From Rubrivivax sp. (GTDB taxonomy: Bacteria; Pseudomonadota; Gammaproteobacteria; Burkholderiales; Burkholderiaceae_C), in NCBI GenBank assembly GCA_027489455.1, contig JAIXZR010000136.1, forward strand, positions 1 through 64,000: 64,000 nucleotides of DNA. The letters run 5' to 3'. The position numbers and the translations under genes are program-made. Below are positions 6,966 to 33,575 of this stretch, piece after piece. Below the pieces are notes generated by a model. The model was not told the origin of the DNA, searched no databases, and was given only the letters and a program-made list of their open reading frames with translations. The first letter of the stretch is position 1; each line of letters starts with the position of its first letter.

Positions 6966-8384
6966 TCAGGCCACCGAGGCGCCGCCCACTGGGCCAGGCA
7001 CGAAGTCGAAGGCCACGCTCATGCGCACCCCTGGCGATGTGTATGGCGTCGTGCCGTGCCACATGTAGGCCGGGAAGAAGACGATGCGGCCTGGCTGGGG
7101 GTCGATGAAGCGTTCGGCCGAGGGCAACGGCACCAGCGGTATGCCGGGCTCGCCGAGCTTGAGCTGCCCTTGACCCGGGCCCAGGGCCGGCGGCGTTTCG
7201 ACGTAGCACGCGGAGGAGATCCATCCTTCCGGGTGAACATGGTTGACGTGCCGGCCGCCCGCCTGCATCCGGATGGACCAGCCGCCCTGGGTGGCAAAGC
7301 TGCCGCGGTTGCGGGCGCGCATGGGATCGCTGCCAGTCCCGAGCCGCCCCAGGTAGCGCCGCAACGGCGCGTCGATCGCCTGGGCCAGCGCCTGCGTGGC
7401 ACGGTGCGTCATCTGCAGGATGTTGGTGAGCTGCGAACCCTGCCGAACCGACTGCTGGAAAGGGTGGGTGCGGTACCGGTGTTCGCCATGCAGCATGCCG
7501 GCGAGCTCGGCCAGGTATTGGGCCAGGTCGTCCCATCCGGCAGGTGTTGCCAGCTCTTCCACCGCCACCAGGGCGTCGTAGTCGTAGAGCTGGCCGTACC
7601 GCGAGTCACCCATCAGCCGCCAGGCCGTGGCCAGCCGGGCCAGCGCATGCTGGTCCAGCGGCGCACGCGCGTGCAAAGCCGTGGCGATCTGCTCGGCGCG
7701 GCCCAGCTCGCCCAGGACGAGCAGCGCATCGATGCGCGCCAACTGGGTTGCCCCCCATTCGGGCGCAAGCGCTGTGGCACGCCGGGCCGCCGCCAAGGAG
7801 TCGCCAGGCAACCCGGCTTCCAGAGCTGCCTGTGCCAAGGCCAGCGCCAGGGTCACGTCGGCTGGCCGGTCCAAGGCAGCAGCCTGCAGCAGGCGCAGGG
7901 CCGCCGCCGCTTCGCCCACTTCCGAGAGCGTCTGCGCCTTCAGGACGATGAGACTGGCTTCCTGCGGGGCGCTCGCCAGTGCTGCATCGATGGGCCCCAG
8001 GGCTGCGGCCACGGCCCCGGTACGCATCCAGTGCAGCTGCGCCAAGTCACGAAGCGCATCGGCATACCGGGGGCGCCTGCGCAGCGCCTGTTCGTACAGG
8101 CCCTGTGCATCGTCCAGCCGGCCTTGGGCCTGTACGGCGCGAGCGCAGACCAGCCACGCCTCGGGCGCGTCCAGGCCCAGTTGCAAGGCACGTGAGGCTG
8201 CAGCCTCCGCCGCCGCTGCATGGCCGAAGTCGCCGAGGATGGCCGCCAGGTTATGGAAGGCCACCGCATTGCCAGGGTAGGCGGCAGTGATGGCCCGGTG
8301 CGCTGCTATCGCGGCGTCCCAGTGGCCTTGCTGCCTCAAGTCATCCGCTGCCCGCGTGGCTTCGCCAATGCCCGCCATGCGCAA
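6966..8384 (-). CDS. TPR protein with C-terminal 2OG-Fe(II) oxygenase domain
   Basis: TPR-like N-terminus; C-terminal GGWSIRMQAGGRHVNHVHPEGWISSACYVETP...RIVFFPAYMWHGTTPY...RMSVAFDFVP. Confidence 0.85.
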   Translation of the reverse strand: MRMAGIGEATRAADDLRQQGHWDAAIAAHRAITAAYPGNAVAFHNLAAILGDFGHAAAAEAAASRALQLGLDAPEAWLVCARAVQAQGRLDDAQGLYEQALRRRPRYADALRDLAQLHWMRTGAVAAALGPIDAALASAPQEASLIVLKAQTLSEVGEAAAALRLLQAAALDRPADVTLALALAQAALEAGLPGDSLAAARRATALAPEWGATQLARIDALLVLGELGRAEQIATALHARAPLDQHALARLATAWRLMGDSRYGQLYDYDALVAVEELATPAGWDDLAQYLAELAGMLHGEHRYRTHPFQQSVRQGSQLTNILQMTHRATQALAQAIDAPLRRYLGRLGTGSDPMRARNRGSFATQGGWSIRMQAGGRHVNHVHPEGWISSACYVETPPALGPGQGQLKLGEPGIPLVPLPSAERFIDPQPGRIVFFPAYMWHGTTPYTSPGVRMSVAFDFVPGPVGGASVA

Positions 8385-8425
8385 CTTCTCGAAATTGGTT
8401 CAGCGGGAATGGGCGATCGCCCGGC

Positions 8426-8755
8426 CTAGCGCCCGCTCGTCGAGCCAGTGCGCTGCTGCAGATCTTGCATCGTCTTGCGCGAGATCTCGCGTTCCAACTC
8501 CCACTGCGCCGCGGTCTTGCAGATGCGGGTGGGAATGAGCGAGCCCACAGGTCGCTCCTGCTTGCAGACCTTGCGGTCGGGGTCGGCTTCAGCCGCCTGC
8601 TGTCCCTTGGCGTTGGCCGCGGGCGTGGCGGGCGCGGCAGCGGCAGCAGGTGCGGCAGAGGCTGCCGCGGCCGGCGCGGTGGCAGCCGTGTTGGCCATGG
8701 CGGCAGCGGTTGCCAGCGACAGCAAGAGGCTCGCAAGGATGGGAAGGGTCTTCAT
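8426..8755 (-). CDS. Small secreted hypothetical protein (signal peptide, Ala/Pro linker, two-Cys C-terminal core)
   Basis: MKTLPILASLLLSLATAAAMANTAA...DPDRKVCKQERPVGSLIPTRICKTAAQWELEREISRKTMQDLQQRTG; 4-nt overlap with the upstream hydroxylase-sulfotransferase gene. Confidence 0.7.
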   Translation of the reverse strand: MKTLPILASLLLSLATAAAMANTAATAPAAAASAAPAAAAAPATPAANAKGQQAAEADPDRKVCKQERPVGSLIPTRICKTAAQWELEREISRKTMQDLQQRTGSTSGR

Positions 8756-10803
8756 GAGGCAATCGCTTCGTGGGTGGGTGGAAAGGGTGGCCGATGGCCG
8801 CGGTTGGACGGCGGCGGGGTGTCCTGCACCGCCTGCACGCCCTGCAGCGCTTCGCTGCCCGGCAAAGCCAGCAAACGGTCCCAGGTGCTCTGCAGCCCGC
8901 CCAGCACAGGCTCGATCAGGTCAGCATTCTTGCGCCACTTGCCCGGCATGGGCCGGGTCTGCGTGTACCTGGAAGGCGGCAGGGGCGAACCCACACGGCT
9001 GCGCAGGGCGTCGTCGAATGCCATGCCGGCGAAATCGCAGATGCGCTGAACGCTGTGCGCCGGGTCGGCCAGAAACGTGCTGTAGCTCAATGACATCCAC
9101 TGTGCTGCAGGCACGGCCTGCAGGTCGTCGAGAGCGATGCGGTTGGTCGTCTCCCACTGGAAGGCGGCGATCTCACCCAGCGACTTGCCGCGCAATGCAC
9201 GCCAGCCCGGGGGCAGGACGAGTGACCAGGGGCCGTCCCAGTCCGGCATCTTCGAATAGGTGACCCAGCCGCCGCTCTTCCAGGCTTCGATGATGCTGCT
9301 GAGGTTCTCGCGCGGGTCTCTCCACAGGAAAACGAAACGCGCGTCGGGGAACAGCCTGGCAAAGAACGGGATGCGCAATGCATTCTTGGGCGTCTTTTCG
9401 AGCAGGCGCAGTGCCTGCGCGTGCGCTGGCAGCGGCTGCTGCGCCGGGCCTTGCAGTCTCTCGATGAGGCGCCGCCGGACCTCGATGCCGATGTCGGGGG
9501 TGGCGTGATGGGCATCGACGCGGTTGTCGTCGATGCCCGGCGCGCCCGGCGAAAGGTGGTCGAAGCCTTCGACCAGCCAATGCGCTTCGCCGCCCACGGT
9601 CCAGAACTGTGGGGTGCAGGCCAGGGTCTCGAACAGCAAGGTGCTGCCCGACCGCGGCGCGGCCATGATGAACACGGGCTGCACAAGCTGGGGCGAAGGC
9701 GATACCGCGGGGGCCACCACGCGCGTGGTGCGGATGGAAGGCGCCGGGGCCGGCGATGGCGCCGGCGCAGGTGCGGACACCGGGGTTTGCACCGCAGCCG
9801 CAGCCGCAGCGGCGGGCACGTCGGGCACGGAGACACGCCCCGGCGCCGACGGCGCCAGCGCTGCCAGTTCGTCATTGAGGAGATAAGCCGCCACGCGCGA
9901 GCCCAGCACGCGCATGGCCGGTATGCGGTTGCTGCGCATGCAGAGCTTGTCGCCCCAGGGCCGCGTGACGTCGCGCAGCGCGCCGGCCAGGCGGCGGAAG
10001 TCGGCCAGGCCTTCGTTGCTGTCGCCATGCAGCAGCCACAGCTGCCGCCAATCTGCGCGGAAGCTGCGCAGCAGGCTCTGGAACTGCACCACGTCCGCCG
10101 GGCCACCGTCCCCCGCAGGGCTGGGCATGAGGTCGTCCGCCAGGTCTTGCAGCAGCTGATCCAGTTCAGCCGGGGGCATGACGCGATAGCTGTTGAACCG
10201 CTCCAGCGCCAGGGTCGAAACAGCACCCGGCCGGTAGGGCACGCTGCGCGGCGCCGGGCCGGTCTGTGCTTCTGCGGCCAGGTTCCAGAACGCGGCACTG
10301 CCAGACGTATCGGCCACCAGGTGGATGCGTTCATGGTCGGTGGCGTTCTCCACGCGGTGCAGCCGCCAGTTGTCGAACAGCCAGGCCTCGCCGGCGGCCA
10401 TGTGCACCACCTGATCGTCGCAATAGAAGCTCACGCCCGGCCGGGTGATCACGGGGATGTGCACCCGCACGCGCGAAAACCAGTGGTAGTTGGTGTCCAC
10501 GTGCTCGGGCACGCAGGCGCCGGGCGCCAGGCGCATCAGCCGCGAACGGCCCCAGACCACGCCGAAGCTCGTCAGCACTTGCTGGATGTACGGGCAGGCC
10601 GCCAGGTGCGGCGTCATCTGCATGTGGCCGCTGACCTCGTCGTTCTCGCCGCCGTCCACCGTGATGAGCCGGGCTGCCGTGTTGCCGGGAAACGAATTGG
10701 GATGGCTCGCCCAGGCCTCGGGCGGCAGGGCGCTGGCTTCATGGGCCAGGCGCTGTGCGTCGAAACGCAGGGGCAGGCGGATGAAAGGGACAGGCAGCTT
10801 CAA
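8752..10803 (-). CDS. Aspartyl/asparaginyl beta-hydroxylase-like / sulfotransferase fusion protein
   Basis: N-term HVDTNYHWFSRVRVHIPVITRPGVSFYCDDQVVHMAAGEAWLFDNWRLHRVENATDHERIHLVADT; C-term PVFIMAAPRSGSTLLFETLA (PAPS 5'-loop), LLEKTPKNALRIPF, FLWRDPRENLSS. TTG 10803 or an upstream start is possible. Confidence 0.85.
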   Translation of the reverse strand: MKLPVPFIRLPLRFDAQRLAHEASALPPEAWASHPNSFPGNTAARLITVDGGENDEVSGHMQMTPHLAACPYIQQVLTSFGVVWGRSRLMRLAPGACVPEHVDTNYHWFSRVRVHIPVITRPGVSFYCDDQVVHMAAGEAWLFDNWRLHRVENATDHERIHLVADTSGSAAFWNLAAEAQTGPAPRSVPYRPGAVSTLALERFNSYRVMPPAELDQLLQDLADDLMPSPAGDGGPADVVQFQSLLRSFRADWRQLWLLHGDSNEGLADFRRLAGALRDVTRPWGDKLCMRSNRIPAMRVLGSRVAAYLLNDELAALAPSAPGRVSVPDVPAAAAAAAVQTPVSAPAPAPSPAPAPSIRTTRVVAPAVSPSPQLVQPVFIMAAPRSGSTLLFETLACTPQFWTVGGEAHWLVEGFDHLSPGAPGIDDNRVDAHHATPDIGIEVRRRLIERLQGPAQQPLPAHAQALRLLEKTPKNALRIPFFARLFPDARFVFLWRDPRENLSSIIEAWKSGGWVTYSKMPDWDGPWSLVLPPGWRALRGKSLGEIAAFQWETTNRIALDDLQAVPAAQWMSLSYSTFLADPAHSVQRICDFAGMAFDDALRSRVGSPLPPSRYTQTRPMPGKWRKNADLIEPVLGGLQSTWDRLLALPGSEALQGVQAVQDTPPPSNRGHRPPFPPTHEAIAS

Positions 10804-12110
10804 GCAGGGTCTCCATGCACGGCGCTGGCGCCGAAGTCTCCCAGCGTTTCCTGCAGCGTACACACCGCCACGCGCTCGGCTTCGCTGAGATCCGGGTGCC
10901 AGACGTCGAAGATCATCACCACGCGGGTCTGGTCGCTGCCGTTCCTGGCTTCATGGGAATAGGTGTCGTCGAAAGCAACGACTTCGCCGAAGCGCCAGTG
11001 GTGCGGCTCGCCGGCCACGTGCAGCACGCAGTCGCGCGGCACGATCAGCGGCAGGTGGCAGACGACGCGGGTGTTGGTCACGCCATGGTGCGGCAGCAGG
11101 TGCGTACCGGGCCCCAGGGTGCTGAAAAGCACCTCGGGCCCGTGGCCGCGCACGCGGGCCAGCGGGAGTTGATCGATCGCCAGGATCGTCTGCGGGCAGC
11201 GGCTGGCGTTGACTTCGTTGCGTTGCCCGTGGCGGTAGAAGTAGTAGCCGTCCCAGCGGGCGGCAGCGCGGTCGCTGCGCAGGTAGCGCGCGGCCAGCTC
11301 GGGGCTGCTGAACACCTGCTCGCGTCCTGCATCCAGGCCCAGCACGGCCTGCAGCTCCGACAGGATGGCCGGGGCCTGTGCCTCGAGCTGTGCCACGCCG
11401 GGTATGCGCTGCTTGTCCAGATAGGGCGACTGCGGCAACCCGGGGAAAGCCATGCCGGTGGGCCTTTGCCGGCTGTCCTGCGGGGCGTAGGCGGCATCAC
11501 CCAGTTGCACGGCCACGAAGTTCGCCACGCGCTGCATGGCGGCACGGCCGAAGCGCTGAACCAGGGGTGCGTAGGCTTGCTCGCACAGTGCGCGCCGGTG
11601 CTGATCCACCAGCGCCATGGCGTGCTGCACGTCGGCCTGCAGCCCGGGCGGCGTGGACGCAGCGCTGAGCCAGCGGCCAGCTTGCTGCGCGGCACGGATG
11701 GCCCGGAAGTACTGCCGCGCAGCAGCGCCGGCATCGCCCGAGGCTTCCAGCAGGCGCGCATAGCCCAGGCGCGTGGCATACAGGCCAGGCTGGCGCTGCA
11801 GCACGTCGCTGTAGGTCTGAAGCGCGGCGGCGGTCTCACCCTGCGCCTGCTGCACCATGGCGAGGTGGTTCAGGCTCAGCACGTCTTCCGGCGCCGCGGC
11901 CAGGGCCGTGGCCAGGTGCGCGCGCGCCGATGCGGCGTCCCCGGCCCGCAGGGAAAGCACGGCCAGGGCGTTGCGCGCTTCCACGTGCGCAGGCTGCGCT
12001 TCGACGAGGGCCTGAAACAGCAACCGCGCTTCGTCCATGCGCCCGGATGCGAACAGGGCACGGGCCTGCCGCAGGGTCAGGTCTGCAACCGCCGGTTCAG
12101 CCGCGGCCAT
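10800..12110 (-). CDS. TPR protein with aspartyl/asparaginyl beta-hydroxylase domain
   Basis: TPR N-terminus; C-term FSTLGPGTHLLPHHGVTNTRVVCHLPLIVPRDCVLHVAGEPHHWRFGEVVAFDDTYSHEARNGSDQTRVVMIFDVWHPDLS. Confidence 0.88.
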   Translation of the reverse strand: MAAAEPAVADLTLRQARALFASGRMDEARLLFQALVEAQPAHVEARNALAVLSLRAGDAASARAHLATALAAAPEDVLSLNHLAMVQQAQGETAAALQTYSDVLQRQPGLYATRLGYARLLEASGDAGAAARQYFRAIRAAQQAGRWLSAASTPPGLQADVQHAMALVDQHRRALCEQAYAPLVQRFGRAAMQRVANFVAVQLGDAAYAPQDSRQRPTGMAFPGLPQSPYLDKQRIPGVAQLEAQAPAILSELQAVLGLDAGREQVFSSPELAARYLRSDRAAARWDGYYFYRHGQRNEVNASRCPQTILAIDQLPLARVRGHGPEVLFSTLGPGTHLLPHHGVTNTRVVCHLPLIVPRDCVLHVAGEPHHWRFGEVVAFDDTYSHEARNGSDQTRVVMIFDVWHPDLSEAERVAVCTLQETLGDFGASAVHGDPA

Positions 12111-12284
12111 GGCGGCCCTCCAGCGCTGCCGGGCCGGTGCAAAGCGCGATTTGCCAGACCTGGCAATGCAGGCCCATCGTGCGCTCGGTGCCACCCAAGC
12201 CACCCGCACGCTGCCTGGGGTCGAGCCCGTCGGTGCCCTTGGGCTGGTTGACGCCGTCGATGCGGCCGTTGCGCGTCACACCAT

Positions 12285-14126
12285 TCATGCCGTGTAGCCC
12301 CAGCGCTGGAGCAGATGCGCCACGTCGGCCTGCAGCGGCAGCAGATGCTGCTGGTAGCGACGCCAGCGGTCCACGGCGCTGCGGCTGACGGGGCGCACCA
12401 CCTGGTGGTAGCTGGGGGTGGCGATGTAGCCCTTGCTGAGTGCATGGCGCGCGGGGTGCAGCATCGCGTCGTGCCAGTCCAGCCCGCAGAAGCCCGCAAT
12501 GCGCCGGGCCTGCGGTTCGAAATCCGTCACGAAGTCTTCGTAGCAGACCTCCAGCACCTTGGGCTGCAGCACTTGGACCTGCTCGTACCAGAAGTCGAAG
12601 ATGCGGGCATAACCCCGCGCCAGGGTGGGCAGGTCGCGACACAGGCGCGCGTAGTCGGGCGCACGGAAGTGCTGGAAGTAGTTGCTCGTGATGACGTCGA
12701 AGGGGTGCCGGATGGCCAGCAGGATGGGCGCGTTCGGCCACAGGCGCTGAATGACCGGCAGGCGCAGCATGTTCAAGGGGTTCTTGTCCAGCAGGCGCTG
12801 GCCTGGCTCGAGCCGTACCTTGGTGCCCACCTGCGCCCAGTAATGCTGCCGCGCCATTTCCAGCTGCTCGGGCGTGGCATCGCCCAGTCCGGCCGGATAG
12901 TCCAGCCCCAGTTGCTGCAGCCGCTCCTGCGCGTCCAGCAGGAAACGCTGCTCGTCCATGGTTTGCAGGCCCGGGTGCGCGTCGAGCATCTGCTCCAGCA
13001 GCGTGGTGCCAGAACGCGGGAACGCGACGATGAACACCGGGCTCTCCTGCAGCGTCGGCGGCACGGGCTCGTGCCAGCGCGCCACGTCGGGAGGGCGGGC
13101 ACCCCGGGCGGTAACGCCCAGGGCGTCCACGGGGTTCGCAGGGCCTGCGGCGGCCGTCGGGGCCGTCACGTCGAAGCCCAGCATCTGCGAGACATGGGCG
13201 GCGGTTGCGGCTTCGAAGGCGTCGTCGTAGAGCCCCGCTGCGTCCAGCGCCTTGGCCAGCGGGAAAAGCGCCTCCTGGCGCGATTCCGGCGACAGCCCAC
13301 GGGCCAGCATCTCGCGGTACAGCGCGATGGCCTGCGCATGCTGTTCGTTGCGGGCGGCAATCTGGGCCTGCAGCCCCAACCAGCGCAACTGCACTTCAGG
13401 CGCCAAATCGCGCAGGGGCAGCCGCTGCAGCCTGGCCACGCGGGCCGTGGCCTCGTCGATGCGATTGGTGCGCTCGAGCATGGTGATCACGCCCATCTCG
13501 ACTTCGGGCGGGTTGTCTTCCGCCGGGGTCAGGCGCTCGAGGATGCCCAGCGCCGCAGCCTGGTCGCCCACCGTCAGCAAAAGCATGCCCATGGCCGCCA
13601 GCCTCTCGGCCGTCCAGCCTTCCCAGTGCTGCCAGCCCGCCAGCGCGTCGCGCAAGGCCGCGGGCTCGCCGCTTTGCATCAGCAGCTGGGCATAGAAACA
13701 CCCGATCTCGGAATCAACCGGCCAGTAGGTGATGGCCTGCGCCAGCTGGTCGCGCGCCTGCTTGAACCGGCCTTGCTGCAAGGCAAGAAGCGCCGTGTTG
13801 TAGAGCAGGTCAGGCGTCCAGCCACCCAGCGCTGCAGCGCGCTCGTAGCCCTGCAGCGCGGCATCCAGGCGCCCGGCCGCGCGCTCGGCCGTGGCCAGGT
13901 TCATCCAGTGCACCGGCTCGCCTGGCTGCAGCTGTGTCAAAGCACGGAAGGCGTCCGCCGCCAAGGCGTAGCGCCCGAGCGCGCTCATCACCACGCCCCA
14001 GGCCAGCACGGCTTCGGGCTCGCGCGGGTCGGCGCGGTAAGCCTGGCTGGCCAGCTGTTCTGCACTGCCGAAGTCGCCCTGCTGGGCTGCGATCAGCGCA
14101 TGGCTGGCGAAAGTTCTTGCGTCCAT
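12285..14126 (-). CDS. TPR-sulfotransferase family protein
   Basis: TPR N-terminus; C-term PVFIVAFPRSGTTLLEQMLDAHPGLQTMDEQRFLLDA...LLDKNPLNMLRLPVIQRLWPNAPILLAIRHPFDVITSNYFQ. Confidence 0.88.
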   Translation of the reverse strand: MDARTFASHALIAAQQGDFGSAEQLASQAYRADPREPEAVLAWGVVMSALGRYALAADAFRALTQLQPGEPVHWMNLATAERAAGRLDAALQGYERAAALGGWTPDLLYNTALLALQQGRFKQARDQLAQAITYWPVDSEIGCFYAQLLMQSGEPAALRDALAGWQHWEGWTAERLAAMGMLLLTVGDQAAALGILERLTPAEDNPPEVEMGVITMLERTNRIDEATARVARLQRLPLRDLAPEVQLRWLGLQAQIAARNEQHAQAIALYREMLARGLSPESRQEALFPLAKALDAAGLYDDAFEAATAAHVSQMLGFDVTAPTAAAGPANPVDALGVTARGARPPDVARWHEPVPPTLQESPVFIVAFPRSGTTLLEQMLDAHPGLQTMDEQRFLLDAQERLQQLGLDYPAGLGDATPEQLEMARQHYWAQVGTKVRLEPGQRLLDKNPLNMLRLPVIQRLWPNAPILLAIRHPFDVITSNYFQHFRAPDYARLCRDLPTLARGYARIFDFWYEQVQVLQPKVLEVCYEDFVTDFEPQARRIAGFCGLDWHDAMLHPARHALSKGYIATPSYHQVVRPVSRSAVDRWRRYQQHLLPLQADVAHLLQRWGYTA

Positions 14127-14127
14127 G

Positions 14128-14159
14128 AAAAAAGGGCCGGCAAAACTTGCACGGCCCTT
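14128..14159 (-). terminator. Rho-independent terminator/attenuator after TBDR1
   Basis: Minus strand AAGGGCCGTGCAAGTTTTGCCGGCCCTTTTTTC: hairpin plus U-tract, abutting the ATG (14126) of the next gene. Confidence 0.75.
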
Positions 14160-14182
14160 GGATCCTAGCGGACCAGGAAAGG

Positions 14183-17008
14183 TCAGAAGCTCTGTTCGAC
14201 GCGGAAGAACCAGCGACGGCCGATGGTGTCGTAGGTCTGCACGTCGACGTTGCCGTTGGTCTGGAACTGATAGGCCAGCGGCGGCTGCTTGTCAGCAACG
14301 TTGTTGACGCCCAGGATCATCTTCGTGTTGCCGAACATCTTCATGTTGTAGGACACGGCCAGATCGTGGTACGTCACCGCGGCCTGCTGGACGAGGATGA
14401 TGCCGCCCGAGGTATCGCCGAAGTTGGAGTCAGCGCTGTTGCTGATGGTCGACTTCGCGATGTGCCGCGCCGACCACTGCACGCCAAAGTCGCCCATGGA
14501 CCAACCCACCTGGCTGGTGGCGCGCAGCTTGGCGAAGTTGCCGTAGCTGGGGTCCAGGCTACCGGCGGCTTCCGTGACCTTGCCGCCACCCAGGTCGTAC
14601 TTGAAGCTGTTCGTGCGAGCCAGGTCCAGACCCACCTGGAAGCGCCCGAAGCTGGTCGGCGGCAGGATGTACTTCACCGAGACGTCCACGCCATCGGTTT
14701 CGATGAACCCGGCATTCAGGTTCGCCAGCCCGATGTTGATGATCTGCCCGGTGCCGGGATCGCGCCGGATACGGTTGCAGAAGGCGTCGCTCGGCGCAGT
14801 CAGGCAGGTCTGCGCGATGACCGTGGGGTCACCCGCAGTGATGGCCTGGTTCAGGCGATACCGCCAGTAGTCGGCCGTGACCGAAAAGCCGCGCAGCAGG
14901 CTGGAGTCGTAGACGAAGCCCAGCGTCGAGACCGTGCCTTCCTCGGGGCTCAGGCTGGGGTTGCCACCCAGGAAGCCCAGGATCTGCGAGTTGGCTTGGC
15001 GGTAGCCGCTGTTGGGCGGGATGAACTGGCAGGCACGCGAATAGCCGGGTTCGCTGCCCGTGGCCGCGCGGCAGGGGTCGATGAAGGTCGGGAAGCTGCC
15101 TTGTTGCGTGGCGAAGCGGTCGCTGATCGTGGGCGCGCGGAAAACTTCAGACCATGTGCCGCGGAACAGCAGGTCGGTGATGGGGCGGTACTCGAGCTTG
15201 AGCGAGCTGTTGGTCGTGTCGCCGAAGCTGTCGAAGTTCGAGAAGCGTGTGCCCAGGGTCAGGTTCAGGGCCTTCACGCCGGGCATGTTGCTCAGCAGAG
15301 GGATGAACAGTTCGCCGAACACTTCCTTGACCTCTTCCGACCCCGACGTAGGCCCGCTGCAGGTCTCGGCGGCCAGCAGGCAGGAAGAGAAGCTGGGCGG
15401 CGTGTACAGCGTCAGGGCGTCGATGCGCGAGTTCAGCCAACCCCGGCGCCAGCTGGCGCCCACGGCAGCCTGGGCCGTGCCACCGGACCACTTGAACGCG
15501 TCGCCCGTCAGGATGCCTTCGACGGTGCGCTGGTTGGTGGTGAAGAAGTTGGTGTAGCCCACCGAGAAAGGCCGCAGGCCTGCCAGCGATGCCTGGCCGA
15601 TCGGCGAGTCGGGCGTGACGTTGAAGACGTTGAAGGCATCGCGGTTCAGTGCGCCCTGCAGCAGGCCCTGGTTGATGTAGCCATCGACGCTGGAGTTCTG
15701 CTTGGTGCCCTGGTAGGTGTAAGACGCGTCCCAGGTCCAGCTGGTGCCCGGGATACTGCCGCGCAGGCCGGTGGTCACCTGCGTCAGCGAGGTTTCCGTC
15801 ACCGACAAGCGGGTGCCCAAGTCAACGGGCCGGAACTGAAGGTTGGTGCCCACCGCTCCGCCGGCACTGGTGGCACCGAAGGAGATGCCGAACGGGTTGT
15901 TCGTGCTGGTGGCAAAGCCGTCGTTGTTGGCCACCAGCGGCAACGGCGCGATCTGGAAGCCCGACTTGGTGTTGTTGTGCAGCGCGGTGGCGTACATCTC
16001 CACGGCGTCATGGATGTTGTAGGCCGCATCCAGGAACACGCTGCCACGCTCCTGCGGCGTCAAGGCCAGGTTCAGCGGCTGGTAGTCGTAGGCGTCGGTG
16101 GCGCTGTTGTAGCAGCGGAAGTCCGCCAGCGACGTGCCAGCGGCACCCGTGCGGCGCGTGAGTACCTGGCTGCCACCCGTGCCGCAGCCGAACTGCGCGC
16201 GCGCGGTCACGCCGTTGGGCAGCACGGTGGTGCTCGGCAGGGTGATGCGGCCCTGCGGGGTTGAGCTGGAGCCCAGCTTCAGGATGTTGACGGCACCGTC
16301 ATAGGTGTACCAGTACAGCGCGCTCTTGGAGAACTCCCGGTCACCGGACTTGACCTCGCTTTGCTTGTTGTAGTTCAGCCCCACCGCAATGCGGCCGCGA
16401 TCGGTGGACAGGCCAAAGCTCAGCTCGACAGCCTGGGTCTTGGCGTCGCCACGGCTGGAACGGCCGGTCTGATAGCCAATGTTGACGCCGTTGACGTCCT
16501 TGCGCGTGATGATGTTGACCACGCCGCCAATGGCGTCGGAACCGTAGGTCGCACCCGCGCCTTGCTTGAGGATGTCGACGCGATCAATCAGGTTCAGCGG
16601 GATCGAGTTGACGTCGAAGCTGGCACCCAGACGGCGCCCATCCAGCAGCGTGAGGGTGCGCTCGGAACCCAGGCCACGCAGAGAGATGGTGGACGCGCCG
16701 TCGCCGCCACCGTTGTTGACCTGCGGGTTGGTGGCAGCACCGGCGATGGAAGGCAGCGCCTGCAGGAGTTCGCCAATGCTGGCGACACCCGAGGTCTGGA
16801 TCTGGTCGCGGCTGACAGTCTGCACTGGCGAGGCGGTCTCCGCCTCGATGCGACGAACGCGCGAGCCGGTGATCTCCACACGCTGACCAGTGCTCGTCGC
16901 AGCCTGCGCGGCCGCGGGGGCTGGCGTCTGAGCGTGCACCGGCAACATCATTGCGCCGCCCAAAGCGGCCAATACCGCTGAGCAAACCTTGGTCCTTGTG
17001 AAAGCCAT
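14183..17008 (-). CDS. TonB-dependent receptor (TBDR1)
   Basis: MAFTRTKVCSAVLAALGGAMMLPVHAQ signal; VEITGSRVRRIEAETASPVQTVSRDQIQTSGVASIGELLQALPSIAG plug; RRWFFRVEQSF C-terminus. Confidence 0.93.
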   Translation of the reverse strand: MAFTRTKVCSAVLAALGGAMMLPVHAQTPAPAAAQAATSTGQRVEITGSRVRRIEAETASPVQTVSRDQIQTSGVASIGELLQALPSIAGAATNPQVNNGGGDGASTISLRGLGSERTLTLLDGRRLGASFDVNSIPLNLIDRVDILKQGAGATYGSDAIGGVVNIITRKDVNGVNIGYQTGRSSRGDAKTQAVELSFGLSTDRGRIAVGLNYNKQSEVKSGDREFSKSALYWYTYDGAVNILKLGSSSTPQGRITLPSTTVLPNGVTARAQFGCGTGGSQVLTRRTGAAGTSLADFRCYNSATDAYDYQPLNLALTPQERGSVFLDAAYNIHDAVEMYATALHNNTKSGFQIAPLPLVANNDGFATSTNNPFGISFGATSAGGAVGTNLQFRPVDLGTRLSVTETSLTQVTTGLRGSIPGTSWTWDASYTYQGTKQNSSVDGYINQGLLQGALNRDAFNVFNVTPDSPIGQASLAGLRPFSVGYTNFFTTNQRTVEGILTGDAFKWSGGTAQAAVGASWRRGWLNSRIDALTLYTPPSFSSCLLAAETCSGPTSGSEEVKEVFGELFIPLLSNMPGVKALNLTLGTRFSNFDSFGDTTNSSLKLEYRPITDLLFRGTWSEVFRAPTISDRFATQQGSFPTFIDPCRAATGSEPGYSRACQFIPPNSGYRQANSQILGFLGGNPSLSPEEGTVSTLGFVYDSSLLRGFSVTADYWRYRLNQAITAGDPTVIAQTCLTAPSDAFCNRIRRDPGTGQIINIGLANLNAGFIETDGVDVSVKYILPPTSFGRFQVGLDLARTNSFKYDLGGGKVTEAAGSLDPSYGNFAKLRATSQVGWSMGDFGVQWSARHIAKSTISNSADSNFGDTSGGIILVQQAAVTYHDLAVSYNMKMFGNTKMILGVNNVADKQPPLAYQFQTNGNVDVQTYDTIGRRWFFRVEQSF

Positions 17009-17331
17009 CTCGAAAACTCCTGGAAAGATAGGGATCAGAGCCAAACGCGCAGGTGCCAAGGCCGCTGCACACGCCATCTGCATTCTCAGTGGCGCACCGT
17101 GCTCTGGCTCAAGGTTTACCCGGTTTGGCCGGCGTTACCCATGTTTTCTGTAGGACAAGTTGCGCCAGTGCGACAGGTTTCGCGACATGTCCTCTGGCAG
17201 TCGAGCTTGCACTGGCGACCGCCGAGCTCTGGCCTGCCTGCCGTCGATGCCCAGGCTGGTGCCTAACCCGGGGGAGCTCCTGCCCGCGTTGGCCCGATGC
17301 CTGCCCTGGAGCCATCACCGGCCCATGCTTG

Positions 17332-18729
17332 TCAGGCCGGGGCGATGTCAAAAGCAATGGTCAGCCGCGGATCGGCACCACTGAACGGTTCGGTGCCATG
17401 CCACATGTAGGAAGGAAACAGCACGACCCATCCCGGTTCGGGCCGCACCCAGTGCTCAGCGGGCAGGGCTTCTCGCAGCGCGAGACCCGGGCGGCCGAAA
17501 CGCAACCAGCCTTCGCGGCCACCGGCGATGACTGCGCCCGGCAGCTCGATGTAGCAGGCCGATGAGATCCACCCGTCCTGGTGCACATGGTCGACGTGGT
17601 AGCCGCCAGGCCGCAGCCAGATCGACCAGCTGCCGACCAGCGCCACGCGCCCGCTGTTGCGCGAGCAAAGAGGCCCGGGCCCCTGCCCTATCTGGGAAAG
17701 ATAAGTCTCTAGCGGCCCGGTGATCGATTGGGGAAAGGCGGCCAACGCCGGGCTCGTGCGGCGCAAGACGTCCGGCAGCTGGCTGCCCTGGCGCAGGGAA
17801 TGGCCAAACGGATGGGTTCTGAACGGATGGGCCGCCTTCAGCTCCGCGGCGAGCGAAGACACGTAGGCCGGCAGGCTCTCCCATCCCGGCGGCACCGCCA
17901 GCGGTTGGGCGCGGACGAATCGTTCGTAGTCGTACAGATCGCGATAGCGCGGGTCGCCCGTCATGCGCCAGGCCACGGCCAGCATGGCCAGCAGATGCTG
18001 GTTGCGTGGGCTCTGGCGGAGCAAGGGCTCCAGGATCCGGGCCGCTCCCGGCGCATCCCCGACAACGAGCCTGGCACGCGCCAGCGCCTCGAGGGCCCCC
18101 GGTTCTTTGGGCGCGTTGTCGACCCCGCGAGCGGCAAAGTCCAGCGCATCCTGTCCACGGCCCAGCTCCGCGCTCAGGTGCGCGGCATAGGCGAGCACGG
18201 CCGACGGGCAGTGCTGATGTGCAGTCTGACTCTGCAGGGCCCGCAGTGCAGCTTCGGCATCCCCCATGAATTCCAGCGCCTGCGCCTTGACCATGGAAAG
18301 CAAGGGATCAGCGCCCCGCTGGCTCAGGGCGGCTTCCAGGCCAGCCAGCGCCTGCTGCCGGTCGCCAGTCGTCATCCAGGTGAGTTGCGCTGCTTCGAAC
18401 TGCGCGGCCAGGGTGTTGGGCTGCCGTCGTAGCACTTCGCGATAGGCGCGGCGCGCAGCGTCGACCTGTCCGCGCCCCTGCTCGGCACGGGCCAGCACGA
18501 GCCAGGTTTCCGGCGCGTCCAGGCCGGTGCGCAAGGCCCGGCTGGCGATCTGGGCCGATTCGGCGTGCCGGCCCAGATCCCCCAGCAGGGCGGCCAGGTT
18601 GTGCAGCGCGATGCCACTGCCCGGGTACCGCTGGACTGCCCGCCCGTACAGGGCCAGCGCCTCGTCCGGACGTCCACGGGCCTTCAGCTGCTCGGCTTCA
18701 AGGAGGAAGGCGTCAAGGGATTCCAGCAT
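17332..18729 (-). CDS. TPR protein with C-terminal 2OG-Fe(II) oxygenase domain (paralogue of 6966..8384)
   Basis: GSWSIWLRPGGYHVDHVHQDGWISSACYIELPG...WVVLFPSYMWHGTEPF...RLTIAFDIAP; start at MLESLDAFLLEAEQLKARG. Confidence 0.86.
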   Translation of the reverse strand: MLESLDAFLLEAEQLKARGRPDEALALYGRAVQRYPGSGIALHNLAALLGDLGRHAESAQIASRALRTGLDAPETWLVLARAEQGRGQVDAARRAYREVLRRQPNTLAAQFEAAQLTWMTTGDRQQALAGLEAALSQRGADPLLSMVKAQALEFMGDAEAALRALQSQTAHQHCPSAVLAYAAHLSAELGRGQDALDFAARGVDNAPKEPGALEALARARLVVGDAPGAARILEPLLRQSPRNQHLLAMLAVAWRMTGDPRYRDLYDYERFVRAQPLAVPPGWESLPAYVSSLAAELKAAHPFRTHPFGHSLRQGSQLPDVLRRTSPALAAFPQSITGPLETYLSQIGQGPGPLCSRNSGRVALVGSWSIWLRPGGYHVDHVHQDGWISSACYIELPGAVIAGGREGWLRFGRPGLALREALPAEHWVRPEPGWVVLFPSYMWHGTEPFSGADPRLTIAFDIAPA

Positions 18730-18760
18730 GCAAGGCCTCGAACGATCGCAACGCAGCCAC

Positions 18761-18793
18761 AAAAAAAGGCGGCGGCCCTTGCGGGCCGCCGCC
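18761..18793 (-). terminator. Rho-independent terminator after TBDR2
   Basis: Perfect 11-bp arms GGCGGCGGCCC/GGGCCGCCGCC, 4-nt loop, 7-T tract on minus strand. Confidence 0.88.
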
Positions 18794-18818
18794 TTGTCCA
18801 GCAGGTACTGACAGGTGC

Positions 18819-21710
18819 TTAGAAGCGGCCGTTCAGACCCACGTAGTAGCGGCGGCCCAGCACATCGTACAGCGACGGGTCGGTGTTGGCCTGCACGTTG
18901 GGCGAGTAGATGCGGGGCTTCTGGTCGGTCAGGTTCGACACGCCAGCACGCAGCGTCAGGCTCTTCGTCAGGTTGTAGGCCACAGCCACGTCGTGGTACC
19001 ACGTCGCTGCCACACCGGTGTTGGTCAGCGGCGAGCTGCCCGTGACGGTGTTGGCGTGCACCATCTTGTCGATGAAGCGGTTCGTCAACGACACGTTCAG
19101 GTCACCCCAGGTGTACGACGTGCCGAAGTTGACGCGCCACTTCGGGGTCGACGAACCCGTCGTGCTGCCAATCGTGCCGGCGAAGTCGTTCACCGGATCC
19201 ACCGACGTCGTCTGCGAGGTGTACTTGTCGGTGTACGTCGCATTGACGTTGAACCGCACCTTGCCGTACTGCTGCAGGCCCAGCGCGTAATCGACGCCCA
19301 GGTCGATACCCGAAACCTTCGTCTGCGCCTGGTTGCGCGACAGCTGCGCCAGGTTGATGATGCCGCCGTTGTTGACATCCCGGCGGAACAGCGAGCACCA
19401 CTGGTTGTTGATGTCGAAGGTCGGGTTGGCACCGTCGCGGTTGTAGCAGCGCTCGATGATGGTCGTCGCGCCCACTGCGGCGATCACGTCCTCCAGCTCG
19501 ATCGACCAGAAGTCGATCGTTGCCGAGAGGTCGCGCACCGGCTGCAGTGCGATACCGGCCGTGAACGACTTCGACTTCTCCGGGCCCAGGCCCGGGTTGC
19601 CGCCGACGAGGCCGGTGGCCTGGCCGGAAGGCTGCACGTAGCTGGCGCCACCGGCAACCACCGACTGCGCGCGGCACAGTGCCAGCACTTGGGCGGCATT
19701 GGGGCCGTTACGGAAACGGGCCGCAATGGTGCCGGACGTGTTGCAGGGGTCACCGCCCGTGATGTTGGGGAAGTTGTTCAGCTGCGGGTCAAACAGCTCG
19801 TTGACGTTGGGCGAGCGGATGGCCGTCTGGTAGCCGCCGCGGAAGCGCACCATGTCGTTGGCCGTCCAGTCCAGCGTCGCCTTGTAGCTGGAATCGTTGC
19901 CGGTGATACTGCTGTCCGTCGTGCGGGCACCCAGCGTCAGGGACAACTTCTTGGCAAAGGCCTGGTTGCTCAGGATGGGAATCACCGCTTCGGTGAAGAC
20001 ATCCTTGAAGCGCAGGCCGCCCTTGACCGGCAGTTGCTCGTTGAAGCCTGCCACCTGGCCCGGCTGCAGGCCGGAGTCCGGCTTGAAGTCGAACGACAGA
20101 TCACGGTAGGCAGCACCCACGACGATGTCGAGCGAACCGGCGGGCAGCTTGGCCACCGGGCCGGTCGCCGTGGCTTCCACCACGCGCTGGATGACGGTCG
20201 TCAGGTTCTTGGCTTCCAGGCTGATGTAAGCCCGGCAGGCATCCGACAGCACCGAGTCACCGAAGGGGTTGAAGCCGCCAGCGCAGAGGGTGCGGCCGCC
20301 GTCGGCAGCGTCGATCAGGGCCTGCACGCGCGGGATGCGGACGTTGCCACCCTGAATTTCGGTCTGCACCGACCGGCCATAGCTGCCGTAGACGTCGTAC
20401 GACCAGCCATCGATCAGCCCGATGTCGCCGGTGGCGCCAGCCACACCTTGCCAAACGTCGTGGTTGTTGGTGCTGGTACGGCCACCCAGCGCGTTGAAGC
20501 GCTTGCTGAACGCCACCGTGGCCGTGGGGTTGGTGCGGCCGGCCAGCAGCTGGCGCGCCTGGGCGCTGAGGAAGGGGTTGGTCACCGGCACGAAGAAGCC
20601 AGTGGTGCCGCCGGCCGGCGTCGGGGCCAGCTGGGATTGGGCGTTGTAGTTGGTGAACTGGAAGCTGGCGTAGGGCCGGAAGTTGTTGTTGACCTCGTAG
20701 TTCACGCTCGAGTAGGCCGTCCAGCGCTCTTGCGGCAGCACCAGCAGGTTGTCGGGCTCGAAGTTGTACGAGAAGAAGTCAGGGAAGAACGCCGTGGCGA
20801 TGTCGCTCGTGGGGCCGCGGTAGTTGACGGCGTCGCGCGGGGTGCCAGCGACACCCGTGCAGAACAGGGTGCCGTCGGGGTTGAAGCCGAAGCCGGTGCT
20901 GCCGCCGTTGGTGTTGCAACGGTCGGCGCCGAAGATCGCGTCCACCGTCGCTTGCGTGGGCGTGTTGGCGCCGACGGAGATCGAGCCGCCGGGGAAGGTA
21001 CCGGTGGCCGTGCTGGCCTGGGCCGCGAAGTCGCGGGCGCCCTTGTAGATCGGGTCACGCTTGAAGTAGCCGCCGCCGAACACGGCCGAGCCACGGCCGC
21101 CGTCGAAGGTGCTGCCCAGGGTGATGGACGCGGAAGTCTCCTTGCCGTCGTTCTTCTCGGTCCAGCGGTGCTGGGCGTCGAGCTCGACGCCAGTGAAGTT
21201 CCGCTTCATGATGAAGTTCACCACGCCGGCCACGGCGTCGGCGCCGTACACGGTGGCCGCGCCGCCGGTGATGACTTCGACGCGTTCGATCAGCGACGTC
21301 GGGATGGTGTTGACGTCAACGACGCCGCCACCCGTGGAGCCCATGCCCCGCTTGCCGTTGATCAGCACCAGGTTGCGGCCAGATCCCAGACCACGCAGGT
21401 CGATGAAGGCACGGCCGTTGGAAGACGGGTTGTTCGACTGCGAGCTCAGCGCCGGCGTCACCTGCGGCAGCGTGTTCAGGAACTGCTCGACGGTGACCAC
21501 ACCGCTCTTCTGAATCTGGTCAGCGGTGACGGTGACGATGGGGCTTTCGGCGAGTGCATCGATACGGGCAATGCGCGAGCCCGTCACGGTGATGGTCTGC
21601 GCCGGGGCTGCGGTGGCAGCCTGCTGCGCGAACGCGGGAGCCGAGCCCATCGCTGCGGCGCCGCCCAGCGCGAGCAGCACCCCGCTGTAAACCTTGGATT
21701 TCTTAAACAT
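18819..21710 (-). CDS. TonB-dependent receptor (TBDR2)
   Basis: MFKKSKVYSGVLLALGGAAAMGSAPAFAQQ signal; ITVTGSRIARIDALAESPIVTVTADQIQKSGVVTVEQFLNTLPQVTPALSSQSNNPSSNGRAFIDLRGLG; RRYYVGLNGRF C-terminus. Confidence 0.94.
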   Translation of the reverse strand: MFKKSKVYSGVLLALGGAAAMGSAPAFAQQAATAAPAQTITVTGSRIARIDALAESPIVTVTADQIQKSGVVTVEQFLNTLPQVTPALSSQSNNPSSNGRAFIDLRGLGSGRNLVLINGKRGMGSTGGGVVDVNTIPTSLIERVEVITGGAATVYGADAVAGVVNFIMKRNFTGVELDAQHRWTEKNDGKETSASITLGSTFDGGRGSAVFGGGYFKRDPIYKGARDFAAQASTATGTFPGGSISVGANTPTQATVDAIFGADRCNTNGGSTGFGFNPDGTLFCTGVAGTPRDAVNYRGPTSDIATAFFPDFFSYNFEPDNLLVLPQERWTAYSSVNYEVNNNFRPYASFQFTNYNAQSQLAPTPAGGTTGFFVPVTNPFLSAQARQLLAGRTNPTATVAFSKRFNALGGRTSTNNHDVWQGVAGATGDIGLIDGWSYDVYGSYGRSVQTEIQGGNVRIPRVQALIDAADGGRTLCAGGFNPFGDSVLSDACRAYISLEAKNLTTVIQRVVEATATGPVAKLPAGSLDIVVGAAYRDLSFDFKPDSGLQPGQVAGFNEQLPVKGGLRFKDVFTEAVIPILSNQAFAKKLSLTLGARTTDSSITGNDSSYKATLDWTANDMVRFRGGYQTAIRSPNVNELFDPQLNNFPNITGGDPCNTSGTIAARFRNGPNAAQVLALCRAQSVVAGGASYVQPSGQATGLVGGNPGLGPEKSKSFTAGIALQPVRDLSATIDFWSIELEDVIAAVGATTIIERCYNRDGANPTFDINNQWCSLFRRDVNNGGIINLAQLSRNQAQTKVSGIDLGVDYALGLQQYGKVRFNVNATYTDKYTSQTTSVDPVNDFAGTIGSTTGSSTPKWRVNFGTSYTWGDLNVSLTNRFIDKMVHANTVTGSSPLTNTGVAATWYHDVAVAYNLTKSLTLRAGVSNLTDQKPRIYSPNVQANTDPSLYDVLGRRYYVGLNGRF

Positions 21711-30853: not shown

Positions 30854-30982
30854 CGGCCCCCTATGAGGGGCCTTTTTTTTCGCCTGGTTCCGCCATCCTT
30901 CATAGGAGAGTTCGAAAAATACCGTTGCACGTCGTCTCAGTCCATCGCAGAATCTGATGGTGGAACGGATGGGGGAACCATA

Positions 30983-32218
30983 GTGCCCAAGATCGCCAAG
31001 CCGCTGACGGCCGTCGAGGTCAAGCGCCTGACCGAGCCCGGCTTGCATGCTGTCGGCACCGTGGCGGGCCTGAACTTGATGGTCAAGGCCAGCGGCGCAC
31101 GGTCCTGGGTGCTGCGCACCAAGATCGGCACCAGGCGCGCGGAGCTCGGCCTGGGGGGCTATCCGACCGTTACCCTGGCCGAGGCCATGGAAGCCGCGCG
31201 CACCGCGCTGCGCAAGATCAAGGACGGCACCGACCCGGCCGCGGAGCGCCGCGCCAGCCGCAGCACGGTCGAATGGACGTTCAAGAAGACCGCCCTGGCC
31301 TACATCGAAGCGCACCGCGCGGGATGGCGGAACGCCAAGCACGTGACCCAGTGGGAAAACACCCTGGAGACGTACGCCTTCCCCGTGATGGGCGCCAAGC
31401 ACGTGCGCGACGTGACGAAGGCCGATGTCCTGGCGGTGATCGAGCCCATCTGGACGACGAAGAACGAGACCGCGGTGCGCATCCGCAACCGCATCGAGCT
31501 GGTGCTGGGCTACGCCATGCAGCGCGACTACAGGCCCGAGGGCCCGAACCCGGCCCGCTGGCGGGGCAACCTGGACACCGCCCTGCCCAAGCCTTCGAAA
31601 GTCAACCAGCGCGAGCACTTCGAGGCCGTCGCCATTGATGACCTGTACGCCTTCATGCAGCGCCTGCAGGCTGCTGCTGGCCAGGGCGCCAGGGCACTGG
31701 AGTTCGCCATCCTCACCGCCAGCCGCACCGGGGCCGTGCGCGCCGCGATATGGGACGAGATCGACCTGGCCGGCGCCGTCTGGACAGTGCCAGGGCCGAA
31801 GATGAAGTCAGGCCGCGTGCACCGCGTACCGCTGGCGCCGCGCGCCATCGAACTGTTGCAGGCCCTGCCCCGGTTCGAGGTCGAGCCCGGAGCGCCTGAC
31901 CTGGTCTTTCCGGGCGCCAAGGGCAAGCCCATGTCCGACATGAGCCTGACGGCCGTCATGCGCCGTATGGGCCTGTCAGCCGTGCCCCATGGGTTCCGAA
32001 GCGCCTTCAGCGACTGGTGCGCCGAACGCACCGCCACGCCGGCCGAAGTGCGGGAGATGGCGCTGGCGCACGCCATCGGCGACAAGACCGAGGAAGCCTA
32101 TCGGCGCGGCGACCTGTTCGAAAAGCGCCGGGAGCTGATGGCACTGTGGGCCAGGTTCCTGGCCACACCGCCGGCAGCCGACAACGTGGTCAAGATGAAG
32201 AACCGCGCCGCCCGGTAG
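30983..32218 (+). CDS. P4-type tyrosine recombinase/integrase (GTG start proposed)
   Basis: MPKIAKPLTAVEVKRL...AVGTVAGLNLMVKASGARSWVLRT...ELGLGGYPTVTLAEAMEAARTALRKIKDGTDPAAER; R...HGFRSAFSDWCAE...ALAH...EEAYRRGDLFEKRRELM. Confidence 0.94.
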   Translation: MPKIAKPLTAVEVKRLTEPGLHAVGTVAGLNLMVKASGARSWVLRTKIGTRRAELGLGGYPTVTLAEAMEAARTALRKIKDGTDPAAERRASRSTVEWTFKKTALAYIEAHRAGWRNAKHVTQWENTLETYAFPVMGAKHVRDVTKADVLAVIEPIWTTKNETAVRIRNRIELVLGYAMQRDYRPEGPNPARWRGNLDTALPKPSKVNQREHFEAVAIDDLYAFMQRLQAAAGQGARALEFAILTASRTGAVRAAIWDEIDLAGAVWTVPGPKMKSGRVHRVPLAPRAIELLQALPRFEVEPGAPDLVFPGAKGKPMSDMSLTAVMRRMGLSAVPHGFRSAFSDWCAERTATPAEVREMALAHAIGDKTEEAYRRGDLFEKRRELMALWARFLATPPAADNVVKMKNRAAR

Positions 32219-32315
32219 GCGGCAACCCGCGCCGCAGGGGCCCTGCGGCAAGGCGGGCCGGAAGCTGCGGACACAGCAACCGGCCCTGGCCAAGTGCAAC
32301 CCTAGGAGAAGCACC

Positions 32316-32825
32316 ATGGTTCCATCTATTGTCGGCCAACAGCAACTGAAGACCGACCAGGCGCCGCGTGAGTTAACGATCCAGATCTTGCAGGATGCTT
32401 CCGCAACTTACACCGGCACGGCGGCGCAGCTGGTGGCCGAAGGCCTCATACCACAGGAGTTCAGCTGGCCGAAAGCTACTGTCTGCAGATACTGGGAGGC
32501 GGGCGGCTTTAAGTTTGAGCTGCGCCGCACTCGGCCCGAGGGCCATAAGGGGCCGATGCGTTCCTGGCTGGAATTGGATAACTGGTCAGTTGAAGTGAGG
32601 GTGATCGGCCGCAACGTGCACTGGCAGACGCGCCGCCGCTTAGAGCGCCAGTCGGCAGCGTTGAAAGCCGAGTACTGGCGACAAACCGCAGAGGGCGCGC
32701 GCGAATGGAACGCGGCGTGGAACCGCTATTGGCAGACCAAGACTGATGAGCGTTTTCAGGCCTTCAAGGCCTTGATACCCAGCCTGGTGCGGCCAAAACG
32801 CGGGCGCAAGCCCAAGGCAGAGTAA
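32316..32825 (+). CDS. Hypothetical protein (satellite accessory ORF 1)
   Basis: Good RBS (ctaggagaagcaccATG); 169 aa, no family recognised; basic C-terminus VRPKRGRKPKAE. Confidence 0.6.
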   Translation: MVPSIVGQQQLKTDQAPRELTIQILQDASATYTGTAAQLVAEGLIPQEFSWPKATVCRYWEAGGFKFELRRTRPEGHKGPMRSWLELDNWSVEVRVIGRNVHWQTRRRLERQSAALKAEYWRQTAEGAREWNAAWNRYWQTKTDERFQAFKALIPSLVRPKRGRKPKAE

Positions 32826-33475
32826 TGACGAAGGGAAAGGCCAGGCCGGAAAGCCTGGCCACCTCGAAAGGCGCTGCTGCAACGTCGGGAGGCGTGGGAG
32901 GCGGCACAGTTGCATTCGACCCTTTCACAGCAACGATGGACGAAGCAACGGCCCAGCCTCACGCCCACGCGATACGCGGCCCTGTCCTCCAGTGGGTTTC
33001 AGCGCGCATGCTCGAAGACTGGCGGGCACGAATCGAAGGTGGCGATGGGTTCGACGTGCTGCAGGGTGTTGCGTGGTGCGCCACGAATGGACTGAAGATT
33101 CCTGATTGGCTGGCAGACATGTTTCTCCAGAGATATCGGCGGGTTCAGCAGTTGCACGTGTCGTCGTGGGACGACCCGACCGCGTTCGGCAGGCCGTATC
33201 CCCCTCGCGTTGACTTGGCTGTGGGGCGCCTTCGCCGAGAAAAGCGAATCGAACTGGAGGTGTTCTTTTCCGAGACGCGGACGCCGCGCACGAAGGCCGG
33301 CTTTGCCGCTGCAGCGAAGGCACTCGGCATCACTACGAGGCAAGCCAGGGACTGGACACCCAAAACCCGGAGGAACACTAAGGGGCACAAGCCATACAAG
33401 TCCCGGCGGGAGGTCGAGAAGGTCGAAGGCCCATCTGCGAGCGATCCCTTCGGCCTGAAGCACAAACCCCGCTGA
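32825..33475 (+). CDS. Hypothetical protein (satellite accessory ORF 2)
   Basis: TAATG overlap with the preceding ORF; 216 aa; no family recognised. Confidence 0.6.
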   Translation: MTKGKARPESLATSKGAAATSGGVGGGTVAFDPFTATMDEATAQPHAHAIRGPVLQWVSARMLEDWRARIEGGDGFDVLQGVAWCATNGLKIPDWLADMFLQRYRRVQQLHVSSWDDPTAFGRPYPPRVDLAVGRLRREKRIELEVFFSETRTPRTKAGFAAAAKALGITTRQARDWTPKTRRNTKGHKPYKSRREVEKVEGPSASDPFGLKHKPR

Positions 33476-33498
33476 AGCCGCTATAGAGCGGGGCTTTG
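33467..33498 (+). terminator. Possible intrinsic terminator
   Basis: CCCCGCT...AGCGGGG followed by ctttgt; weak U-tract. Confidence 0.4.
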
Positions 33499-33575
33499 TA
33501 ACTTGACCGCAGATTCTCAAAACTCGCCCAACACCGCCTAGCGCCGTCGCGCAGGGGTGCAAATGGGATGAGTTC

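Follow-up and report, generated by a model that had tools for sequence, protein, structure and literature searches.

What does a bacterium do with a single gene that encodes both a hydroxylase and a sulfotransferase, and on what would such an enzyme act? In animals, the AspH-like hydroxylation and the sulfation of secreted proteins belong to textbook knowledge; in bacteria, to our knowledge, they are hardly known, RaxST/RaxX being the example that we found. The gene considered here lies in the window, by which we mean the whole stretch of 64,000 nucleotides of a Rubrivivax sp. contig (JAIXZR010000136.1) that was analyzed.

The preliminary description had placed one polypeptide with both enzyme domains at positions 8752 to 10803 without naming a strand. 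The plus strand of this interval is non-coding, and a single open frame of 683 residues runs without interruption on the minus strand, from 10803 to 8752; the coordinates and the single polypeptide therefore stand, and the coding strand is to be added as minus. The mechanical open reading frame begins with a GTG codon at 10863. Translation probably starts at the TTG at 10803, which shares nucleotides with the stop codon (TGA) of the preceding gene; at its other end, the TGA of the fusion overlaps the start codon (ATG) of the gene that follows. Because homologs begin at the same residue, with MKL..PF, the end coordinate of 10803 was right. The window protein is 41 to 65% identical to the 51 full-length homologs with which it was aligned, and the invariance of the catalytic residues across this set excludes a chance origin of the frame. 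The fusion is a real, conserved, uncharacterized, predicted bifunctional enzyme.

Both domain assignments were borne out by a Pfam domain search, in which PF05118 scored 60.2 bits (cutoff, 22.6; E value, 2.7e-16) and PF13469 scored 90.8 bits (cutoff, 27; E value, 1.9e-25), and all of the motifs quoted in the preliminary description were found in the protein. The AlphaFold2 model (mean pLDDT, 88.4) has two folded parts, and the Pro/Ala linker proposed to join them is indeed modeled as disordered between two well-modeled folds (Table 1). In the alignment of 51 homologs, H101, D103, and H149 (Fe) and R159 (2-oxoglutarate) are invariant in the hydroxylase half. The sulfotransferase half carries a PAPS-binding loop and an R/S 3′-phosphate motif; it has PRSGST at residues 383 to 388, and PRSG (383 to 386), E406, K470, R495, and S503 are invariant.

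Table 1. Features of the window locus, in the order of transcription
Feature	Coordinates	Strand	Basis and remarks
TonB-dependent receptor 1	18819..21710	minus	Pfam
Terminator-like hairpin, 13-bp stem, T tract	18766..18795	minus	After receptor 1; consensus scan
TPR + PF13759 2OG-Fe(II) oxygenase (TPR-2OG A)	17332..18729	minus	Pfam
TonB-dependent receptor 2	14183..17083	minus	Probable start near 17008; ORF list, Pfam, tblastn
TPR + PF13469 sulfotransferase (TPR-ST)	12285..14126	minus	Pfam; nearest solved sulfotransferases are tyrosylprotein sulfotransferases
TPR + PF05118 protein (TPR-AspH)	10800..12209	minus	Pfam; nearest solved relative is human AspH
Fused hydroxylase-sulfotransferase gene	8752..10803	minus	683 aa; open frame, Pfam, homolog starts
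PF05118 double-stranded beta-helix hydroxylase domain	10234..10803	minus	Residues 1-190; Pfam, alignment, fold match
Helical subdomain	9850..10233	minus	Residues 191-318; AlphaFold2 model
Disordered Pro/Ala-rich linker	9706..9849	minus	Residues 319-366; pLDDT < 50
PF13469 sulfotransferase domain	8806..9705	minus	Residues 367-666; Pfam, alignment, fold match
Small secreted two-Cys protein	8426..8755	minus	Directly downstream of the fusion
TPR + PF13759 2OG-Fe(II) oxygenase (TPR-2OG B)	6966..8384	minus	Pfam

The N-terminal half had been described as AspH-like. Its place in the PF05118 superfamily holds, but its fold resembles HxD..H enzymes, L-proline cis-4-hydroxylase among them, more closely than it does AspH: the nearest structures are L-proline cis-4-hydroxylase (4p7w) and a beta-hydroxylase (7v4f), followed by human AspH, and the match to L-proline cis-4-hydroxylase covers approximately 300 alignment columns, reaching into the range of the helical subdomain. 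The center of AspH proper, with two His residues and a Gly replacing the acidic ligand (HxG..H), is absent from the fusion, and PHxG is present in the neighboring TPR-AspH. The folds closest to the C-terminal half are those of the sulfotransferase domains of olefin synthase and CurM, together with human TPST1/2; E406 aligns in sequence with the catalytic Glu region of TPST, and the global match to the CurM/olefin synthase sulfotransferases is equal. Profile searches aligned the HxD..H..R of the fusion with its counterparts in 4p7w, and its PAPS loop, Glu region, and K/R/S motifs with those of TPST, so that both halves look catalytically intact. Neither fold match fixes the substrate. An APS kinase is present in the genome, and PAPS should thus be available to the sulfotransferase half.

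The fusion is old and widespread. One genome scan returned at least 80 full-length homologs among 479 relatives, several of them in MAGs, and the taxa listed comprise Caulobacterales, Nevskiales, Steroidobacterales, Xanthomonadales, Burkholderiales, cyanobacteria, Planctomycetota, Acidobacteriota, Actinomycetota, and Verrucomicrobiota. In three matching RefSeq plasmid records, the fusion is annotated merely as "sulfotransferase." On the Asticcacaulis DW145 plasmid (L232, 9001-10797), the annotated sulfotransferase gene corresponds to the C-terminal half alone, which is likely an annotation artifact, since the frame is continuous.

The two activities also tend to stay together where the fusion itself is missing. 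When a tree was built from the hydroxylase domain, fused proteins made up one side of it, and four hydroxylase-only proteins (L087, L089, L090, and L094), which retain the helical subdomain, are nested within them; this nesting suggests that their sulfotransferase domain was probably lost. Three of the four (L087, L090, and L094) have an adjoining gene for a TPR-sulfotransferase and/or a PF03567 sulfotransferase, and for L089 a sulfotransferase lies ∼5 kb off on a truncated contig. A conserved, divergent sulfotransferase-like gene follows each of five short hydroxylases that are more distantly related (L035, L095, L096, L098, and L101); the four of these genes that were tested match PF13469, one above and three below the curated cutoff. 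No such neighbor was seen for the short hydroxylases L097, L099, and L100. No other observation argues as strongly as this co-retention for a common task of the two activities, and the earlier suggestion of linked hydroxylation and sulfation has gained support from the spread of the fusion, from the nested members, and from the distant pairs. Fusion to unrelated partners, regarded in the preliminary description as speaking against that suggestion, was found to a mild degree, in that one subclass carries a third domain, DUF4915/TIGR03032.

The window locus, flanked by an SDR/adk block on one side and a peptide ABC transporter on the other, consists of eight minus-strand genes in the order receptor 1, TPR-2OG A, receptor 2, TPR-ST, TPR-AspH, fusion, small secreted protein, and TPR-2OG B. 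TPR-AspH matches human AspH with an E value of 2e-27, strongly in the oxygenase and weakly in the TPR part. The count of terminator-like sites in the region was not above that of shuffled sequences in the consensus scan, a promoter scan gave nothing above chance, and boundary repeats were absent at 6.9 and at 21.6 to 22.1 kb. The small secreted protein belongs to a family with two conserved Cys residues and a Gly-Ser motif that is found immediately 3′ of the fusion elsewhere as well (L104 near 12003; L112, 11849-12265; L113, 11790-12239; L116, 5071-5502). It was considered as a substrate and set aside, as what is conserved is the two Cys and the Gly-Ser motif, with no conserved candidate acceptor; it is kept as a neighbor. 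Farther along the window, a tyrosine integrase is followed by phage- or ICE-like genes (30863-34800), and the GC content climbs from about 0.68 to 0.74-0.79 between 40000 and 58000 in this draft assembly, for which contamination is estimated at 7.4%; the right part of the window may therefore differ in origin.

TonB-dependent receptors are recurrent neighbors of the fusion, occurring in 26 of the 80 listed homolog loci (tblastn). Most partners are close and on the same strand, with 30/33 TPR-ST genes and 23/26 receptor genes located within 5 kb of the fusion. About a dozen further loci repeat the series of receptor 2, TPR-ST, TPR-AspH, and fusion in unchanged order (L104, L111-L115, L119, L120, L127-L130), and the order receptor, TPR-ST, (TPR-AspH), fusion is found in Nevskiales/Steroidobacterales and other MAG loci. 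On the annotated Asticcacaulis plasmid, the order is receptor, sulfotransferase family 2, AspH-domain protein, sulfotransferase, and fusion. TPR-ST and TPR-AspH are also recurrent partners in the 80 listed loci, as are a PF03567-like sulfotransferase, a second PF05118 protein, and a small PF13640 2OG oxygenase. For about 46 of the 80 listed loci, some of which are on short contigs, the available sequence shows no receptor and no beta-helix gene; the main examples are the copies in Brevundimonas and those in thiC-linked Xanthomonadales. In the latter (L139, L143, L145, L156, L158, and others), the fusion adjoins thiC, often with tolC and a ferritin-like gene, and no exported partner was seen.

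Some host lineages carry many receptors, so that single adjacencies are weak evidence there; in the genome of the window, just three more genes match this receptor type at E values of ≤1e-10. Of four new places examined in a blind search for receptors resembling receptor 2, one lies beside a TPR-ST gene and three stand alone; the receptor subfamily thus does not require the enzymes. No receptor columns specific to enzyme-linked copies were found at 90%, in a comparison with only three stand-alone controls.

In the genus of the window, the interval between adk-SDR and dpp is a variable hotspot of receptors and TPR-hydroxylases (window 6966-21710; L205, L211-L214, L217, and L226). It holds receptors alone in one genome (G017), receptors flanked by TPR-AspH genes in four (G018, G036, G042, and G028) and similarly in G004:C66 and G088, receptors with TPR-ST in G075, and a TPR-2OG gene in G019. 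Among the other genomes of the genus that were sampled, the fusion was found in just one (G006), at a different place, and the nearest homolog of the window copy, from Hydrocarboniphaga, is 66% identical in the hydroxylase domain. This distribution, in one hotspot variant, one further genome of the genus, and a nearest homolog in Hydrocarboniphaga, suggests that the window copy was acquired horizontally.

Exported partners other than receptors characterize the subclass with the third domain. TIGR03032/DUF4915 is fused to, or adjoins, the hydroxylase-sulfotransferase at L136, L138, L142, L172, L180, L028, and L233, mostly near a choice-of-anchor-Q protein (L172 being cut before that domain); in the Diaphorobacter plasmid it is encoded by the next gene. 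The choice-of-anchor-Q domain resides in an exported beta-helix neighbor at L028, L136, L138, L142, L172, L180, and in the Diaphorobacter plasmid, whose protein also has an IPTL-CTERM sorting signal. POMP/PMP-type repeats occur in the neighbor at L181 and L140, the latter several kilobases off, and no such exported neighbor was seen at L160, also of the TIGR03032 subclass. This subclass, with its choice-of-anchor-Q/beta-helix neighbors, extends across Pseudomonadota, Planctomycetota, Actinomycetota, and Verrucomicrobiota. Beside one two-domain fusion (L134), a beta-helix protein lies a few kilobases off. Three pairs of a short hydroxylase and a divergent sulfotransferase (G562, G644, and G628; L184, 9398-16519; L185, 9059-16282; and L187) are located in giant exoprotein loci, which encode either a LEPR/DUF4347 exoprotein of 2373 or 2407 aa or an Ig-repeat protein, along with export components of the TolC or HlyD kind. 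A tail-collar protein is also encoded among these loci.

The reading that we favor, tentatively and with slightly less than even confidence, is that the fusion is a cytosolic bifunctional enzyme that adds hydroxyl and sulfate groups to an exported protein encoded alongside it. The N-terminal half would act as an Fe(II)/2-oxoglutarate hydroxylase and the C-terminal half as a PAPS-dependent sulfotransferase, jointly with the neighboring TPR-AspH, TPR-sulfotransferase, and TPR-2OG proteins, and side-chain hydroxylation and O-sulfation would precede the passage of the client across the inner membrane. In the window, the client would most likely be one or both TonB-dependent receptors. The data show the domains, the intact and invariant active sites, the operon-like order, the conserved hydroxylase-sulfotransferase linkage, the recurrent linkage to exported proteins, and the APS kinase in the genome; the catalytic activity, the protein substrate, the receptor as that substrate, and the order of the steps are inferred. 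Since fusion genes repeatedly adjoin genes for surface or outer-membrane proteins, the fusion may decorate such proteins before export, and both partner enzymes have protein modifiers as their closest solved relatives (human AspH for TPR-AspH, TPSTs for TPR-ST). Speaking against an exported client are the roughly 46 loci in which no receptor or beta-helix gene was seen, the receptors of the same subfamily that stand without the enzymes, the lack of receptor columns specific to enzyme-linked copies in the comparison with three controls, a hydroxylase fold nearest to free-proline hydroxylases, and the resemblance of the sulfotransferase half to small-molecule and exopolysaccharide-locus sulfotransferases as well.

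The main competing explanation, which we regard as somewhat unlikely, is that a small molecule or peptide, such as a hydroxylated and sulfated metallophore, is made or tailored by the cluster, leaves the cell, and returns through the TonB-dependent receptor. Such receptors usually import metal chelates or nutrients, the N-terminal domain is nearest by fold to enzymes acting on free L-proline, and the sulfotransferase half is close to the small-molecule enzymes CurM and olefin synthase. However, no NRPS, PKS, siderophore synthetase, or RiPP leader-type gene was seen in the window locus, one fusion subclass has no receptor and is accompanied by a choice-of-anchor-Q/beta-helix protein, and the partner enzymes are closest to protein modifiers. 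The varied exported partners of one enzyme pair would be more easily explained by an exported protein as the client than by a small molecule.

Within the exported-protein reading, the most specific version is that one polypeptide hydroxylates a side chain of a receptor or surface protein and then sulfates the new hydroxyl, yielding a sulfated hydroxy-amino acid at the surface by a bacterial route previously undescribed; we consider it unlikely. More doubtful still is that the two halves modify different residues of one client, for example, by Asp/Asn/Pro hydroxylation and Tyr sulfation, with the fusion serving as a tether. Two independent residues are conceivable because the sulfotransferase fold is equally near to tyrosylprotein sulfotransferase, with whose catalytic Glu region E406 aligns; the 48-residue disordered tether permits independent action, and four hydroxylases have probably lost the sulfotransferase domain. 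Nothing bears directly against this arrangement; long retention of the fusion fits one residue or two equally.

Modification of a cell-envelope lipid or exopolysaccharide instead of a protein appears improbable. PF05118 takes in the lipid hydroxylases LpxO and OlsC, both of which TPR-AspH matches weakly (NCBIfam), and stand-alone relatives of the sulfotransferase half are found in exopolysaccharide-type gene clusters; yet the LpxO and OlsC scores are far below the cutoff, the eight-gene locus contains no glycosyltransferase, exosortase, or lipid gene, and exported proteins are the recurrent link. It is scarcely credible that a hotspot of receptor exchange produced the neighbor links as mere by-products without shared function, for although the adk-SDR/dpp interval is variable, with many receptor sets, and several fusion loci lack such partners, the same gene order recurs in other orders and classes, at sites unrelated to this one.

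A literature search that excluded most subscription journals found nothing relevant on the fusion, on receptor-sulfotransferase-hydroxylase clusters, or on TIGR03032, which gains a genomic context through its linkage to the hydroxylase-sulfotransferase. The family unites both activities in one chain in several bacterial phyla, beside TonB-dependent receptors and surface proteins. If exported proteins are modified, these loci would represent an overlooked layer of outer-membrane protein chemistry, with a bearing on receptor specificity and on phage and bacteriocin binding; if the substrate is instead a small molecule, they would lead to sulfated compounds of an unknown class. In both cases, the loci supply their own candidate substrates, and the question is testable.

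Among known systems, human AspH (PF05118 with TPR) shares its oxygenase fold with the fusion and its TPR-plus-oxygenase layout with the neighboring TPR-AspH, which has the PHxGxTNxR, FDDxxxHE, and DxWxP motifs; human AspH has HxG..H, whereas the fusion hydroxylase has HxD..H, no TPR, and a fused sulfotransferase. The best fold matches of the N-terminal half, 4p7w and 7v4f, have an aligned HxD..H..R site, but 4p7w uses free proline, comes without a sulfotransferase, and is 18% identical to the fusion. TPST1/2 and the CurM-type sulfotransferases, the top fold matches of the C-terminal half, align in the PAPS loop, the central Glu, and the K and R/S motifs; unlike the fusion, whose setting is bacterial and cytosolic, they have no fused hydroxylase. 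RaxX/RaxST provides the precedent for bacterial sulfation before secretion: in the RaxX-RaxST-RaxAB system of Xanthomonas, a bacterial sulfotransferase acts on a peptide prior to export and adjoins the export genes (PMC6637879). Neither an adjacent precursor peptide resembling RaxX nor type I export genes of the RaxA/B kind were found in the window locus (ORF list, Pfam), where hydroxylases and TonB-dependent receptors stand in their place.
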